Shown here piece by piece: positions 3,426 to 28,232 of a stretch of 40,211 bases of DNA (position 1 is its first letter; each line of letters opens with the position of its first letter). Where the stretch lies: positions 1 through 40,211 of the forward strand of contig JALFNZ010000062.1 of NCBI GenBank assembly GCA_022774085.1. Direction: 5' to 3'. Below the pieces are notes generated by a model, which was not told where the DNA came from, made no database searches, and saw nothing but the letters and a program-made list of their open reading frames with translations. A program made the translations under genes and the position numbers. Origin of the DNA: Bacteroidales bacterium. GTDB taxonomy: Bacteria > Bacteroidota > Bacteroidia > Bacteroidales > UBA932.

Positions 3426-3532
3426 ATCTGTTAGTGTATTTATAAATTCACTTTTGCCCGGTAAAGTTAGAAAGAATAATTTTTATTTCAAACTTTTTAT
3501 ACATTTTGTAGATTTGCAAAAAATTATTTACC

Positions 3533-3952
3533 ATGATTTCCTATTATTTTGAGGATACAGACTTCATTTTTAAGGGTAAAACCAAGAATAACCGTTGGTT
3601 GAAACTTGTTGCCGAGAGTGAGATTCGACGTATCGGCAACATCTCTATTATTTTCTGTTCAGATAATTACATTCTTGATGTTAACCAGAAATACCTTCAA
3701 CATGATTATTTTACCGATATCATCACTTTTGATTATTGTGAATCTGATAAACTGTCAGGGGATCTTTTCATAAGTGTTGACAGTGTAAGAGAGAACTCCA
3801 TTGAATACGGTACTGAGTTCGAAGACGAATTAAACAGGGTGATTGTTCATGGAGTCTTGCATCTTATCGGTTATGATGACCATTCAAAGTCTGATATTGA
3901 AATGATGAGGAAGAAGGAGAATTACTATCTTTCATTAAGAGATCTTATATAA
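3533..3952 (+). CDS. ybeY: rRNA maturation endoribonuclease YbeY
   Basis: YbeY metal-binding motif HGVLHLIGYDDH; stop overlaps the mnmG start (TAATG). Confidence 0.93.
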   Translation: MISYYFEDTDFIFKGKTKNNRWLKLVAESEIRRIGNISIIFCSDNYILDVNQKYLQHDYFTDIITFDYCESDKLSGDLFISVDSVRENSIEYGTEFEDELNRVIVHGVLHLIGYDDHSKSDIEMMRKKENYYLSLRDLI

Positions 3953-6051
3953 TGTTTGGAAATAATTATGATGTTATAGTAGTAGGAGGAGGTCATGCCG
4001 GTTGTGAAGCTGCAATGGCCGCCTCAAAGATGGGTTCATCGGTTTTGCTTATATCCATGGATATGGGCAAATTTGCTCAAATGTCCTGCAATCCAGCTAT
4101 AGGTGGAATAGCTAAAGGTCAGATAGTCAGGGAGATAGATGCTTTGGGAGGATACACAGGTATAGTAACTGATTCTTCTACTCTCCAGTTCCGCATGCTT
4201 AATCGATCCAAAGGACCAGCAATGTGGAGTCCTCGTGCTCAATGTGATAAAATCCATTTCTCTCTTAACTGGCGAAAAATCCTTGAAAGTAATTGTAAAT
4301 TAGATATTTACCAAGATACAGTCACAAATTTTATCTTTTCAGAATCGAAAATTTCAGGAGTCCGTACAACTACCGGGGCAATTTTCAATTCTCAGACAGT
4401 TATCTTGACAGCCGGGACCTTCCTTGACGGAAAAATGTTCATCGGAAGAACAATGTTCGAAGGAGGCAGGATAGGTGAGTTACCTTCACACGGATTAACT
4501 TCTCAACTTGTTTCCATGGGAATAAGGACAGCAAGAATGAAAACCGGTACACCCCCTCGAATTGATATTTCTTCTGTCAATACATCCAGACTTGTTCATC
4601 AGACCGGAGATACAGTTCCTGACAAATTCTCTTATCTTCCATATCTTTCGACAGCACAGAATGGAACTCCTCAGATGCCTTGTTTCATTGTCCATACCAA
4701 TCCTCAGGTTCATGATATCCTGAAAAGCGGATTCGGTGACTCTCCTCTTTTCACTGGATTGATAAAAGGTATAGGACCACGTTACTGCCCTAGTATTGAA
4801 GATAAACTCAGAACATTTGCAGATAAACAAGAACATCAGCTATTCCTTGAACCAGAAGGACGTTTTACTAATGAATATTATCTCCAGGGATTTTCTTCTT
4901 CCCTTCCTTTGAATATCCAGATGGATGCTCTTCATTCAATCCAGGGATTAGAAGATGTTAAAGTGTTCCGTCCTGCTTATGCAGTCGAGTATGACTATTT
5001 CGACCCGACTCAGCTCAAACCTAACCTTGAATTGAAAGAGATAGAAAACTTGTTCTTTGCAGGACAGATAAACGGAACAACTGGATATGAGGAAGCTGCA
5101 GCCCAGGGTTTAATGGCTGGTATAAACGCTCATCTCAAGGTTCATGAAAAAGACCCGTTCATTTTGAAAAGAGACGAGGCTTATATAGGTGTTCTTATAG
5201 ATGACCTCATTACTAAGGGAGTTGATGAACCTTATAGAATGTTTACTTCAAGAGCTGAATATAGGATTCTTCTCAGACAGGATAATGCTGACCTGAGACT
5301 GACTCCTTTATCTCACAATATAGGATTCGCAGACGATTTCAGGTATGATTATACAATGAAAAAATACGATAAGATTTCATCTTTAAACGAGTTTTTCGAA
5401 CAAGCATCCATCAAACCAGATGAGGTTAATTCATATTTGGAGTCAGTTTCATCTGCCCCTGTTGAGCATAGAGTTAAGATATCAAATCTTATATCACGTC
5501 CTCAAACATCAATTCATTCTATTTTTGATTTAGTTCCACGTGGAACTTTAAATAAATATCAAATTAATGTTGATGATATGTTTGATTCTCCGATTAATTG
5601 TATATGCCAAGAATATTCAGAGCTTGTTAAATATAATTCATATTCTGATTTAAGTAATACTTTAGGTAAAGAATCAGGTAAAGTTATTTCAATGGCAGAT
5701 GCCGGATATGTACTTCAGACAAATTCAGAATATCCCTTATCACTTCTTGAAAAGGGAAGAATGGATGAAATTATAAAAGAAAATTACAAGAGAGAGATTC
5801 TTGATTCCTCAGAGATTTCTATCAAGTATAAGGGCTATATCGAGAGAGAAAAACAACTTGCTGATAAAATCCAACGTTTGGAGAATCTTCTAATTCCTGA
5901 AGATTTCGACTTTGATAAAGTGGAAAGCCTTTCTATTGAATGCAGACAGAAATTGAAAAAATATTCTCCTCGTACTATAGCACAAGCTTCTCGAATATCG
6001 GGAGTATCACCAGCTGATATATCTGTTCTGTTGGTTTATTTTGGAAGATAA
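3952..6051 (+). CDS. mnmG: tRNA uridine-5-carboxymethylaminomethyl(34) synthesis enzyme MnmG (GidA)
   Basis: YDVIVVGGGHAGCEAAMAASKMG, SCNPAIGGIAKGQIVREIDALGG, GRFTNEYYLQGFSSSLP, AGQINGTTGYEEAAAQGL, C-terminal QASRISGVSPADISVLLVY. At 699 aa it is longer than the usual ~630 aa. Confidence 0.96.
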   Translation: MFGNNYDVIVVGGGHAGCEAAMAASKMGSSVLLISMDMGKFAQMSCNPAIGGIAKGQIVREIDALGGYTGIVTDSSTLQFRMLNRSKGPAMWSPRAQCDKIHFSLNWRKILESNCKLDIYQDTVTNFIFSESKISGVRTTTGAIFNSQTVILTAGTFLDGKMFIGRTMFEGGRIGELPSHGLTSQLVSMGIRTARMKTGTPPRIDISSVNTSRLVHQTGDTVPDKFSYLPYLSTAQNGTPQMPCFIVHTNPQVHDILKSGFGDSPLFTGLIKGIGPRYCPSIEDKLRTFADKQEHQLFLEPEGRFTNEYYLQGFSSSLPLNIQMDALHSIQGLEDVKVFRPAYAVEYDYFDPTQLKPNLELKEIENLFFAGQINGTTGYEEAAAQGLMAGINAHLKVHEKDPFILKRDEAYIGVLIDDLITKGVDEPYRMFTSRAEYRILLRQDNADLRLTPLSHNIGFADDFRYDYTMKKYDKISSLNEFFEQASIKPDEVNSYLESVSSAPVEHRVKISNLISRPQTSIHSIFDLVPRGTLNKYQINVDDMFDSPINCICQEYSELVKYNSYSDLSNTLGKESGKVISMADAGYVLQTNSEYPLSLLEKGRMDEIIKENYKREILDSSEISIKYKGYIEREKQLADKIQRLENLLIPEDFDFDKVESLSIECRQKLKKYSPRTIAQASRISGVSPADISVLLVYFGR
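5532..5547. promoter_or_regulatory. Candidate parS (ParB-binding) site 1, inside mnmG
   Basis: Perfect 16 bp palindrome AGTTCCACGTGGAACT, closely matching the general parS consensus TGTTNCACGTGNAACA. Confidence 0.65.
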
Positions 6052-10946: not shown

Positions 10947-11099
10947 TTCCAGACACACCAAGAACTTTCTTTATTTGCTCTTGATGAACCATTGTCTGCC
11001 AGATTTGTCGTTGAAAACGGGGACTTTGACATTATGATAGGACCTGACAGCCGTGATGTGCAATGCGCCAGGCTGACCGTGCAGATTCCGTTACTTTGA
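10947..11099 (+). pseudogene. C-terminal remnant of a GH3 beta-glucosidase (fibronectin III-like tail)
   Basis: Short open frame without a start codon: ..QELSLFALDEPLSARFVVENGDFDIMIGPDSRDVQCARLTVQIPLL*, resembling the GH3 C-terminal pattern (..FVVEPGEF.IMVGSSSRDIRL..). An in-frame stop lies immediately upstream. Confidence 0.55.
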
Positions 11100-12533
11100 A
11101 ACGGGCATCTTGGACTTTTTATTGGACAGGCGGCTCTTTTCCGCACGGAATCCCATCACATGGCTTTCTATTGAGGCGTCTATGCTGCTTGTAAGCTTTG
11201 ATTCATCCTGTGCAGATACGGCCTCGATAAAATCGCAGACGAGTGCCATGTCCCCGCCACCGTGGCCGGAACCCTTATATTCAGGAATATCGCTTACTTT
11301 CTTGTCCCATACAAGTTTACGGTTGCTCCTGAACTCATATACAGTGAACTTGCTCCCGTCTCCTTCTATATAGCCTGTAGTTCCCATTATCCTTGTCCTG
11401 CGGCCACCAAACGGGGTAAATGCTTCCATTGAGAAAGAAGCCGTGGTACCGTCTGCAAAGACCATCTCGCAGACAAAGTGGTCGGGCTGGTTATTATCGC
11501 AGAAATAGACGCATCTTCCCCATTCGTTGTTAGGATCTGAAATCTTGGACATGATTTCCTGCTCGTCGCGGGAGTTCTTCAAGTCGAAGACTCCAAGGTG
11601 CTGCTTCCTTTTGACATAGATGTCAATTGCAGAATAAGGGCAGGTTGACTCATGAGGACAGCCGTCTGTGCAGCGCTTTGGCGCACCTTGGGGAGCATTC
11701 TCCGGCTTGAACCATGTGAGTGACCCGTCCGCCACAATGCTCTGGCAAGGCTTTCCTACAAACCAGCGGAGAATGTCCAGATCGTGGCAACTTTTGGCAA
11801 GAATTATAGGTGTTGTTTTATTTGAATCCCTCCAATTGCCTCTCACATAGGAATGTGCCATGTGGCGGCATTCGATTGGTTCCATGTGCTGGATACTTAT
11901 CAGTTTGCCTATCATCCCACTCTTCAGGGCCTGGTACATGGCTCTGAAATATGGACTATATCTGAGGACATGGCATACGGCAACGATCCTTCCGTATTTA
12001 TGTGCCTGTGCAGCAATATCTGTACATTCCTTTTCAGTCTGAGCTACAGGTTTTTCCAGAAGGACGTCGTAGCCCCAACGCAAGGCTTTCATGCACGGGT
12101 GATAATGCAGGTCATCCGGAGTCGAGATGACCACAGCATCTGCAAATTTAGGGACAGAGAAGACTTCACTCCAGTCGCCGAAACGGTGCTCAACCGGGAT
12201 ATCAAACTTGTCTCCCATGGCCATCTTGCGGCTTTCCCTTATATCTGAAACGCCAACGACCTGCATGCATTCCGGGTATTTCCTCGCATATTCAGCATAG
12301 GTCCTTCCCCTGTTGCCTGCCCCTATTATTATGACTTTCACCGGTCCACCTTTTATATTGGCTTTCAATGATTTGACCGGGAAGTCCAATTCTGCATCAG
12401 TAGCCATTGAAGACATGGCCTCACCGCTTGCTCCAGAGAGTCGTTCAGCTGCTTTGAGAGTTCCTTCAGAAGGCAATATCGCCGCCCCTGCCGTAAGCAG
12501 GCCAAGGCTTTTCAGAAAATCTTTTCTATCCAT
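11091..12533 (-). CDS. Gfo/Idh/MocA family oxidoreductase with Tat-like N-terminus (paralog A)
   Basis: VKVIIIGAGNRGRTYAEYARKYP Rossmann motif, DAVVISTPDDLHYHPCMKALRWGYDVLLEKPVAQT; N-terminal MDRKDFLKSLGLLTAGAAILP. Confidence 0.9.
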   Translation of the reverse strand: MDRKDFLKSLGLLTAGAAILPSEGTLKAAERLSGASGEAMSSMATDAELDFPVKSLKANIKGGPVKVIIIGAGNRGRTYAEYARKYPECMQVVGVSDIRESRKMAMGDKFDIPVEHRFGDWSEVFSVPKFADAVVISTPDDLHYHPCMKALRWGYDVLLEKPVAQTEKECTDIAAQAHKYGRIVAVCHVLRYSPYFRAMYQALKSGMIGKLISIQHMEPIECRHMAHSYVRGNWRDSNKTTPIILAKSCHDLDILRWFVGKPCQSIVADGSLTWFKPENAPQGAPKRCTDGCPHESTCPYSAIDIYVKRKQHLGVFDLKNSRDEQEIMSKISDPNNEWGRCVYFCDNNQPDHFVCEMVFADGTTASFSMEAFTPFGGRRTRIMGTTGYIEGDGSKFTVYEFRSNRKLVWDKKVSDIPEYKGSGHGGGDMALVCDFIEAVSAQDESKLTSSIDASIESHVMGFRAEKSRLSNKKSKMPVSK

Positions 12534-12656
12534 GATATGTTAATTATGTGGTTGTTGTCTATTACTCAAGTCTCGCAAGTGATAATTGTCGAGACGTCAA
12601 AGCTTTGCACAAAAATAGTTAAAATTTTTGTAAAATACTTTTGCTGGAAAATTTCT

Positions 12657-12751
12657 GTCGTCGCTGCGCTCTTATTGGGATGTCGTCGCTGCGCTCTTTG
12701 ATTTCCTCTTTGGGGATGTCGTCGCTGCGCTTGACATCCCGCGCTCGCGGG
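12657..12751. repeat. GC-rich REP-like repeat cluster (three GTCGTCGCTGCGCT copies plus hairpins)
   Basis: GTCGTCGCTGCGCT at 12657, 12682 and 12718; the last lies in a GGGATGTC...GACATCCC hairpin, followed by CCCGCGCTCGCGGG. Confidence 0.65.
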
Positions 12752-12807
12752 GGGGGATTAGCCACGCTTTGCGTGCCTTTTCCCTTGCCGCTCGCCGCGG
12801 GGCCCTT

Positions 12808-12957
12808 GCAAAACATTGATTATCAGGAGTTACGCGACCTATGGTCGCTATTTCGTTTCTGTCCACTACCTTACAAGAGCAAGCTCTTGACGGCAGTGTA
12901 CAGAAACGAAATTAGCATCGCGAAAGCGATGCTAACTCCTGATAATCAATATTTTGC
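12808..12957. repeat. ~150 bp nested imperfect palindrome (cloverleaf-like)
   Basis: Outer arms 12808-12832/12933-12957 (24/25 complementary), lateral hairpins GCGACC-TAT-GGTCGC and GCATCGC-GAAA-GCGATGC, inner arms 12850-12862/12900-12912 (13/13), apical CAAGAGC..GCTCTTG. Confidence 0.85.
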
Positions 12958-13044
12958 GGTGAGAGGGGGATTCGAACCCCCGGTACGGTAATCCCGTACG
13001 TCAGTTTAGCAAACTGGTGGTTTCAGCCACTCACCCATCTCACC
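12957..13044 (-). tRNA. tRNA-Ser(GCT)
   Basis: Minus strand GGTGAGA..GAGTGGCTGAAACC..CAGTTTGCTAAACTG (anticodon GCT)..long variable arm TACGGGATTACCGTA..GGGGGTTCGAATCCCCC..TCTCACCG. CCA is not encoded. Confidence 0.95.
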
Positions 13045-26792: not shown

Positions 26793-28232
26793 ATGGATAG
26801 AAAAGAATTTCTGAAGAGTATAGGTTTGCTTTCAGCCGGAGCAGCATTCATACCTTCCGAAGGAACCATCAGGGCGGCAGAACGCTTTTCCGGAGCCGGT
26901 TCAAACGATCTGGCGACACTTGACATGGCCACTGACAAAGAAGTTGATTTCCCGGTCAAACCTTTAAGAGCAAATGTGAAAGGAGGACCTGTGAAAGTGA
27001 TAATCATAGGTGCCGGCAACAGAGGACGTACTTATGCTGAATATGCCAGGAAATTCCCTGAATGCATGCAGGTTGTCGGCGTTTCCGATATCCGTGAAAG
27101 CCGCAAGAATGCAATGGGAGACAAGTATGGAATACCGGCAGAGCACCGTTTCGGCGACTGGAGCGAAGTCTTCAAAGTTGGCAAGTTTGCAGATGCCGTG
27201 GTAATATCAACCCCGGATGACCTGCATTATCATCCGTGCATGAAGGCATTGCAATGGGGATATGATGTACTTCTCGAAAAACCTGTCGCACAGACAGAAA
27301 AGGAATGCACCGATATTGCCGCCCAGGCACATAAATATGGAAGAATCGTGGCTGTATGCCACGTCCTGAGGTATAGCCCGTATTTCAGGGCAATGTACCA
27401 GACATTGAGGGATGGAATGATCGGAAAGTTGATAAGCATTCAGCACATGGAACCGATAGAGTGCCGTCACATGGCTCATTCCTATGTCAGGGGCAACTGG
27501 AGAGATTCGAAGAAAACCACTCCTATAATCCTTGCCAAGAGCTGTCATGACCTGGATATTCTCCGTTGGTTTGTAGGCAAGCCTTGTAAGAGCATAGTTG
27601 CGGACGGCTCCCTCACATGGTTCAAGCCTGAGAATGCACCAGAAGGAGCTCCAAAGCGTTGCACTGACGGCTGTCCTCACGAGTCAACATGCCCTTATTC
27701 GGCAATTGATATCTATGTGAAAAGGAAACAGCACCTTGGAGTTTTCGACCTGAAGAACTCCCGCGATGAGAATGAAATCATGTCCAAGATATCCGATCCG
27801 AACAATGAGTGGGGAAGGTGCGTGTATTTCTGCGACAATAACCAGCCAGACCACTTTGTCAGTGAAATGGTATTCGAGGATGGCACCACAGCCTCTTTTT
27901 CAATGGAAGCATTCACTCCTTTCGGAGGCCGCAGGACAAGGATTATGGGAACTACCGGATATATCGAAGGCAATGGAAGCTCCTTTACAGTCTATGAATT
28001 CCGAAGCAACAGGAAACTTGTATGGGACAAGAAAGTCAGCGAAATCCCTGAGTATAAAGGCTCTGGACATGGAGGAGGTGATATGGCCCTTGTATGCGAT
28101 TTTCTTGAAGCCGTATCCGCCCATGATGAATCCAAGCTCACAAGTAGCATAGATGCCTCAATTGAGAGTCATGTTATGGGATTCCGTGCCGAAAAGAGCC
28201 GCCTTTCCAACAAAAAAGTATCCATGAAATAA
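26793..28232 (+). CDS. Gfo/Idh/MocA family oxidoreductase with Tat-like N-terminus (paralog B)
   Basis: Same architecture and near-identical protein to 11091..12533 over most of its length. Confidence 0.9.
   Translation: MDRKEFLKSIGLLSAGAAFIPSEGTIRAAERFSGAGSNDLATLDMATDKEVDFPVKPLRANVKGGPVKVIIIGAGNRGRTYAEYARKFPECMQVVGVSDIRESRKNAMGDKYGIPAEHRFGDWSEVFKVGKFADAVVISTPDDLHYHPCMKALQWGYDVLLEKPVAQTEKECTDIAAQAHKYGRIVAVCHVLRYSPYFRAMYQTLRDGMIGKLISIQHMEPIECRHMAHSYVRGNWRDSKKTTPIILAKSCHDLDILRWFVGKPCKSIVADGSLTWFKPENAPEGAPKRCTDGCPHESTCPYSAIDIYVKRKQHLGVFDLKNSRDENEIMSKISDPNNEWGRCVYFCDNNQPDHFVSEMVFEDGTTASFSMEAFTPFGGRRTRIMGTTGYIEGNGSSFTVYEFRSNRKLVWDKKVSEIPEYKGSGHGGGDMALVCDFLEAVSAHDESKLTSSIDASIESHVMGFRAEKSRLSNKKVSMK

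Follow-up and report, generated by a model that had tools for sequence, protein, structure and literature searches.

Why should a tRNA gene be followed, without a single intervening base, by a large nested palindrome? The question arises from the window analysed here, a stretch of 40,211 nucleotides of DNA from a Bacteroidales bacterium (GenBank assembly GCA_022774085.1, contig JALFNZ010000062.1, positions 1 to 40,211 of the forward strand), in which such a palindrome (12808–12957) is fused to the 3′ end of a gene for tRNA-Ser(GCT). The original prediction, made from the sequence of the window, offered three readings, that is, a non-autonomous element associated with tRNA 3′ ends, a structured RNA processed together with the tRNA, or an elaborate terminator. 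The evidence presented below leads us to conclude that the palindrome is quite probably the body of a very small, protein-less mobile element (about 150–230 bp) which is specialised for the 3′ ends of tRNA genes.

A cloverleaf fused to tRNA-Ser(GCT)

A check of the sequence located every predicted arm of the palindrome at its predicted position, and folding of the minus strand, which is the tRNA-sense strand, yields −95.8 kcal/mol versus −41.8 ± 4.0 kcal/mol for dinucleotide shuffles (z = −13.5), with none of 200 shuffles being equally stable. On this strand the region 12808–12957 folds into a cloverleaf with a four-way junction, which begins at the discriminator base of the tRNA. Its long outer helix P1 is formed by a 5′ arm (GCAAAATATTGATTATCAGGAGTTA, 12933–12957) and a 3′ arm (12808–12832) that are 96% complementary; P1 cells are 92–95% paired in the 56 aligned copies described below. 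Moving inward, fold and alignment define the lateral hairpin P2 (12915–12932, within the stretch 12912–12935), which is directly followed by the T-rich 5′ strand of P3. Sequence, fold and alignment agree on the inner helix P3 (12900–12912 with 12850–12862, 13 of 13 positions paired) and on the second lateral hairpin P4 (GCGACC-ATA-GGTCGC on the minus strand, 12834–12848). P3 leads into P3b and a CUUG-capped hairpin, the apical pair of which (CAAGAGC, 12874–12880; GCTCTTG, 12883–12889) belongs to a core, CCGTC-AAGAGC-TTGC-TCTTG-TAAGG (12869–12893, minus strand), recognised by motif counts and a pattern scan and comprising this hairpin with flanking CGU and UAAGG. The tRNA gene occupies 12956–13044 of the minus strand (ARAGORN; Rfam RF00005, 55.8 bits), and the outer arm indeed starts at its discriminator position 12957, overlapping C74. 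Searching the window against Rfam at gathering scores returned the tRNA only, and nothing credible was found in E-value mode.

The element very probably continues beyond 12808. It is followed on the minus strand by a second hairpin, M2 (GGGAAAAGGC-hp-GCTAATCCC, 12754–12784), which is supported by relatives and by an inverted-copy test, and the outer strand of which, in relatives, is the complement of the repeated T-stem, and then by the eroded remainder of a distal repeat of the tRNA 3′ end (12743–12759, minus strand), where the match of AATCCCCC spans 8 nt, at +196 counted from the tRNA, and is then lost. In view of this hairpin and this eroded copy at about 12743–12784, the predicted length of 150 bp describes the cloverleaf correctly and not the whole unit. 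An additional M2-like hairpin, GGGATGTC-AAGCGCAGCGACGACATCCC (12713–12740, minus strand; sequence and direct repeats D1/D8), is related to repeats which extend to 12650 and belong to the same tail in relatives.

The full form is present as a single copy in its own genome (83% complete). Behind each of the two other tRNA-Ser genes recovered there lies a reduced form with a single hairpin, and at one of these loci (L273) M2 comes next. Some further features of the surroundings may be recorded here. The short hairpin repeats beyond the element (12650–12740) read GTCGTCGCTGCGCTC, and arrays of M2-like hairpins also trail elements in genomes G092, G154 and G111, the tail being longer in G111. The latter relative is ~96% identical to the window 3′ of the element and only 75% identical 5′ of the tRNA, a drop in sequence identity which suggests a recombination breakpoint at the tRNA/element. 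Two genes for Gfo/Idh/MocA oxidoreductases (11091–12533 and 26793–28232) are 83% identical, inverted, and 14.5 kb apart.

A family of elements at tRNA 3′ ends

Since a direct DNA search gave only one near-full relative (79% identical), covariance models were employed. Model R1, built from the window, this relative and locus L030 from a tRNA survey of five genomes, matches 83 of 200 genomes of the genus; model R2, built from 56 copies, matches 128 of 300 genomes of the family (15 of 26 genera) and 53 of 394 genomes of the order (35 of 206 genera). Other copies likewise reside at tRNA 3′ ends: 178 of 198 fetched copies begin immediately past the 3′ end of a tRNA or tmRNA gene (105 of 114 in a first set and 73 of 84 in a second), several of the apparently tRNA-less copies being located at contig ends or after a displaced 17-nt tRNA end. 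In the second set, for which the two strands were compared by score, no copy is antisense to the tRNA. Genes for serine tRNAs predominate among the targets, with all four isoacceptors represented; tRNAs for Arg, Gly, Pro, Met, Lys, Val and His and, once, tmRNA are also found, and about a third of 30 tRNA-Ser loci drawn by tRNA pattern rather than by model hold the full form. The units (about 150–230 bp) have no coding capacity, and no gene lies between the tRNA and the distal repeat.

We thus apparently encounter a large gene-free family at tRNA 3′ ends across Bacteroidales that has so far not been described; in the open-access literature we found no description of such a family. Palindromic Bacteroidetes candidates, mostly terminators, have been reported (PMC8040213), and these may include fragments of the present element.

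Conservation of the structure

In the alignment of 56 copies, 95.2% of cells are paired, double changes occur in 55 of 55 pairs, and the covariation amounts to 0.794, versus 0.07–0.10 when partners are slid. The notion that pairing is kept while sequence varies is supported by this covariation, though not proved by it, since the copies were aligned with the structure as a guide; moreover, palindromes can stay paired through template-switch correction even when function is not selected for. Neither of the two outcomes that the original prediction had named as speaking against it, a single-copy sequence devoid of covariation or a lack of tRNA association, was encountered.

The core CGU-hairpin(CUUG/CUCG)-UAAGG hardly varies (CGT in 52, TAAGG in 45, and the loop CTTG or CTCG in 47 of the 56 copies). 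G·U pairs outnumber A·C pairs in P2 (6.2 versus 0%), P3 (8.8 versus 1.1%) and P3b (11.6 versus 1.8%), which indicates that the sense strand matters in the inner part; P1 exhibits no such excess (2.1 versus 1.8%) and looks like a DNA palindrome. At least five T are found among the first eight nucleotides after P2 in 45 of the 56 copies, and the commonest P3 pairs are U-A. Because a T-rich strand follows it directly, P2 resembles an intrinsic terminator, and judged from the sequence P2 and the T-run look like one in most copies. The T-run of the window itself (TTTCGTTTCTG) is weak.

A repeat derived from the target

The last 17 bases of the tRNA gene, from A58 in the T-loop to C74, constitute the target sequence (AATCCCCCTCTCACCGC, 12956–12972, minus strand; identified by sequence and repeat tests), which is duplicated in relatives. 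There, M2 is found about 165–215 nt past the tRNA and is followed by AATC, the start of the repeated 3′ end of the host tRNA. Among 173 elements, 18.5% repeat the 17-mer of their own tRNA with at least 14 of 17 matches, versus 0.15% when foreign 17-mers are used as a control; the corresponding values for an inverted copy with at least 13 of 17 matches are 15% and 0.4%. A direct repeat with at least 15 of 17 matches is present in 24 copies, and in most of these, tmRNA included, a hairpin and a T-run come right after the repeat, which matches what is expected for the displaced native end of the gene. Duplication of the target is hence seen at the level of the family, as a 17-nt copy of the local tRNA, with repeats eroded or unclear in about 80% of copies. 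The distal repeat of the window itself comprises 8 nt only, located inside a C-run, so that the case for insertion at this locus rests on its relatives.

Other repeats of tRNA 3′ ends were observed as well. Units of a second type, which start upstream of AATC (GGGTTCGA...) and are devoid of the cloverleaf, are found at tRNA-Asp and apparently tRNA-Val (L285 758–929 in G030; L302 in G016; L013/L018 at the tRNA-Val of the window's own genome). At locus L286 (G081:C22), four copies of the tRNA-Ser(GGA) 3′ end are spaced 1.0–1.3 kb apart with small multi-gene cassettes between them, which suggests site-specific accretion of gene cassettes.

Relocation, tandem copies and empty sites

Pairs of similar elements are found more often at different tRNA types (264 pairs) than at the same type (185 pairs). 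The highest identity across types is 92.4%, between elements at tRNA-Ser(TGA) and tRNA-Ser(GCT) of two species, and reaches 86.9% within one genome. When related bodies behind tRNAs with distinguishable 17-mers are compared, the repeat tracks the local tRNA: it matches its own tRNA versus that of the partner over 12 versus 4 nt in G031, 15 versus 5 nt in G076, and 15 versus 8 nt in G079. Tandem copies split by perfect 17-mers exist in three genomes, namely (i) two different elements in G112, (ii) three near-identical units in G493, and (iii) two units around an M2 array in G504. Finally, empty sites, which the original prediction had suggested to look for, do occur: at the syntenic SPOR-gene/tRNA-Ser(GCT) locus (14 loci of relatives and the window) we find five plain terminators, two reduced forms and eight full elements including that of the window, with the orthologous loci, at ~45–60% protein identity, being too diverged for a base-exact comparison of empty and filled sites.

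Interpretation and alternatives

Taken together, the existence of the family, its tRNA association, the conservation of its structure, the target-derived repeat, relocation, tandem accretion and empty sites are well supported. Tandems, relocation, empty sites, 17-nt repeats and the tRNA-bound copies strongly favour the first of the three original readings, a non-autonomous element associated with tRNA 3′ ends. We infer that such an element would insert at the T-loop/3′ end of the gene with a direct copy of the last 17 bp (A58–C74) on each side. The near copy would keep the tRNA intact, since the last 17 bases are duplicated on insertion, and the far copy would be displaced along with the gene's own terminator. 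P2 and its T-run may then act in vivo as a replacement for that terminator, and would thereby render the insertion tolerable. The cloverleaf with its CUUG hairpin would most likely be a folded single strand of DNA that is recognised by a recombinase or transposase acting in trans.

The same features can be read differently. A structured RNA co-transcribed with the tRNA (a trailer sRNA or regulatory RNA), selected in place and with the distal repeat serving as a tRNA-like processing signal, would account for the G·U excess in P2, P3 and P3b, as expected for a sense-strand RNA, and for the CUUG loops, which are classic RNA tetraloops; the repeat and its inverted copy fold into an acceptor/T-arm minihelix, and the repeats at E. 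coli tyrT carry an annotated small RNA, RttR. However, P2 and the T-run should end transcription before the remainder is made, P1 is without G·U excess, and patchy presence, relocation between tRNAs and tandems are not expected for a resident RNA gene. Hence, we regard this explanation as improbable; of the predicted co-processed RNA, what persists is that the G·U excess allows for an RNA role, while transcription probably stops at P2. An intrinsic terminator, elaborate and immobile, the pairing of which is kept by palindrome correction, fits the terminator-like P2 with its T-run and the existence of reduced single-hairpin forms, but it leaves the local-tRNA repeats, the second terminator past the repeat, the tandems and the core motif unexplained and is, in our judgement, very improbable indeed. 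The terminator reading of the original prediction is therefore retained for P2 in most copies, with the restrictions that P2 covers only part of the structure and that the signal is weak in the window.

A repeat of 17 nt from the T-loop to the 3′ end is also the usual footprint of tRNA-targeting integrases, and the palindrome might thus represent a remnant, or an attachment site, of integrative elements of the NBU2 type, which use a tyrosine recombinase, at tRNA-Ser 3′ ends. Yet no gene, integrase genes included, is found between the repeats, the spacing from cloverleaf to M2 is conserved, and at tRNAs for Ser, Arg, Pro, Val and Met and at tmRNA the repeat corresponds to the local gene, also where the body is closely related to one at a different tRNA, which a fixed attP would not produce. 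An attP with a fixed core is disfavoured for this last reason, and we consider an NBU2-type origin unlikely.

Relation to known systems

For the mobile element that we favour, the closest analogue is provided by the E. coli tyrT/tyrV repeats (about 178 bp; RttR RNA, Rfam RF00391, RtT), the units of which also follow a tRNA. At the MG1655 locus (L293) each unit likewise closes with the tRNA 3′ end repeated from AATC onward (AATCCTTCCCCCACCACCA), and this repeat is preceded by hairpins and an incomplete inverted copy (GGGGAAGGAT) as in the present element, but the units are devoid of the cloverleaf and of the CGU/CUUG/UAAGG core. R2 yields no match at the E. coli locus, and the RF00391 model, positive for the E. 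coli control, yields none in the genome of the window; identity with RtT was consequently rejected. To our knowledge, repeats of the tyrT type occur at one tRNA type only and have not been described as mobile.

Tyrosine-recombinase tRNA islands of the NBU2 type likewise possess a directly repeated tRNA 3′ end and a displaced gene end; in contrast to them, the present unit contains no integrase and its repeat always matches the local tRNA. MITEs are, like the element, non-coding (under about 600 bp), palindromic and flanked by direct target repeats, and differ in that here a 17-bp repeat is located at a fixed position of a gene, the body is a cloverleaf, and no autonomous parent was found. CGTC-tagged REPs, short palindromes with an unpaired CGTC tag and with Bacteroidetes among their hosts, have no dedicated known transposase (PMC3733652), and tag and lack of a known transposase are thus shared with our element. 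They are, however, 20–40 bp long, of high copy number and located between ORFs (PMC3733652), versus 150–230 bp, few copies, tRNA 3′ ends and a target repeat in the present case; the label 'REP-like' of the original prediction is inappropriate with regard to size, copy number and context. Casposons duplicate their target (14 nt for MetMaz-C1) and are reported to have tRNA-like target sites (PMC10359463), but are about 10 kb long and carry cas1, whereas the present element is gene-free.

Candidates for the mobilising enzyme

A casposase was rejected as the mobiliser: Cas1 (PF01867) is absent from 12 of 16 carriers and present in only four, and none was found in the window's own genome (83% complete). 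Within the mobile-element explanation, it is conceivable, if rather doubtful, that a Y1 (HUH) transposase of the RAYT/IS200 type moves the element, in which case the CUUG hairpin would be a REP-like binding site and M2 an end composed of guide, hairpin and cleavage site. PF01797 was matched in 15 of 16 element-bearing genomes, the layout of M2 resembles the ends of IS200/IS605 elements, and in genome G210 (L313) a Y1 ORF adjoins the element at tRNA-His with the same hairpin (GCCAAGCTTGCTTGAGCAG) on the far side of the ORF. On the other hand, 18 other Y1 loci exhibit no flanking hairpin pairs, a RAYT-like match is found at one of 111 core-motif loci, PF01797 was not found in the window's own genome (83% complete), and we know of no duplication of 17 bp by IS200-type insertion. 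A Y1 match in G150 was dropped, since the ORF extracted from that position encodes another protein, which resembles a kinase. The arms of P1 constitute inverted repeats, and no autonomous relative with which they would be shared as terminal inverted repeats, as expected for a MITE, was found among the Y1 loci of carriers or the 111 core-motif loci.

The arrangement in G210 (L313, 3216–4420) comprises the tRNA-His element, the RAYT-like Y1 ORF (3472–4266, minus strand) and, beyond it, the second, identical CUUG hairpin, and this unit is a possible autonomous partner. A 21-bp sequence, ACTTTGGCGCAGTTTGAGGTA, forms an inverted repeat around the spacer of L313 and recurs by another element of the same genome (L213).

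Occurrence beyond Bacteroidales and implications

The exact degenerate core pattern occurs in 111 stretches of the genome contig collection, in which about 0.1 matches would be expected by chance (estimated from base composition), and a tRNA lies immediately upstream of 63 of the 80 matches listed. Outside Bacteroidales, the matches listed come from Flavobacteriaceae (Robiginitalea, Robertkochia), where most are located at tRNAs, and, in Firmicutes, from Lachnospiraceae/Clostridia, where most follow protein genes. In Lachnospiraceae loci within L364–L443 (such as L373, L375, L414, L435 and L439), the core hairpin is accompanied by a comparable second hairpin, GAGCAAAA-hp-TTTTGCGAA.

It is tempting to speculate that an unrecognised class of protein-free mobile DNA might land at the T-loop, which is invariant in tRNA and tmRNA genes, duplicate the last 17 bp, replace the terminator and move as a folded cloverleaf strand by means of a recombinase recognising a hairpin common to Bacteroidota and Lachnospiraceae, with the E. 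coli tyrT repeats being a distant member. We put this forward tentatively, as a possibility somewhat short of even. Large islands classically integrate at tRNA genes; here, the element that lands is of about 200 bp, gene-free and order-wide, and keeps its target gene intact while supplying what looks like a new stop signal. It also offers a mobile-element reading of the long-known tyrT repeats, and with the recognition hairpin defined to the base, the question of the mobilising enzyme becomes testable. Finally, many contigs of metagenome-assembled genomes stop no more than about 200 nt away from a tRNA gene (C158, C140, C162 and C112 of G000; C71, C175 and C100 of G048), and repeats at tRNA ends may break assemblies in such a manner that contigs end at tRNAs.
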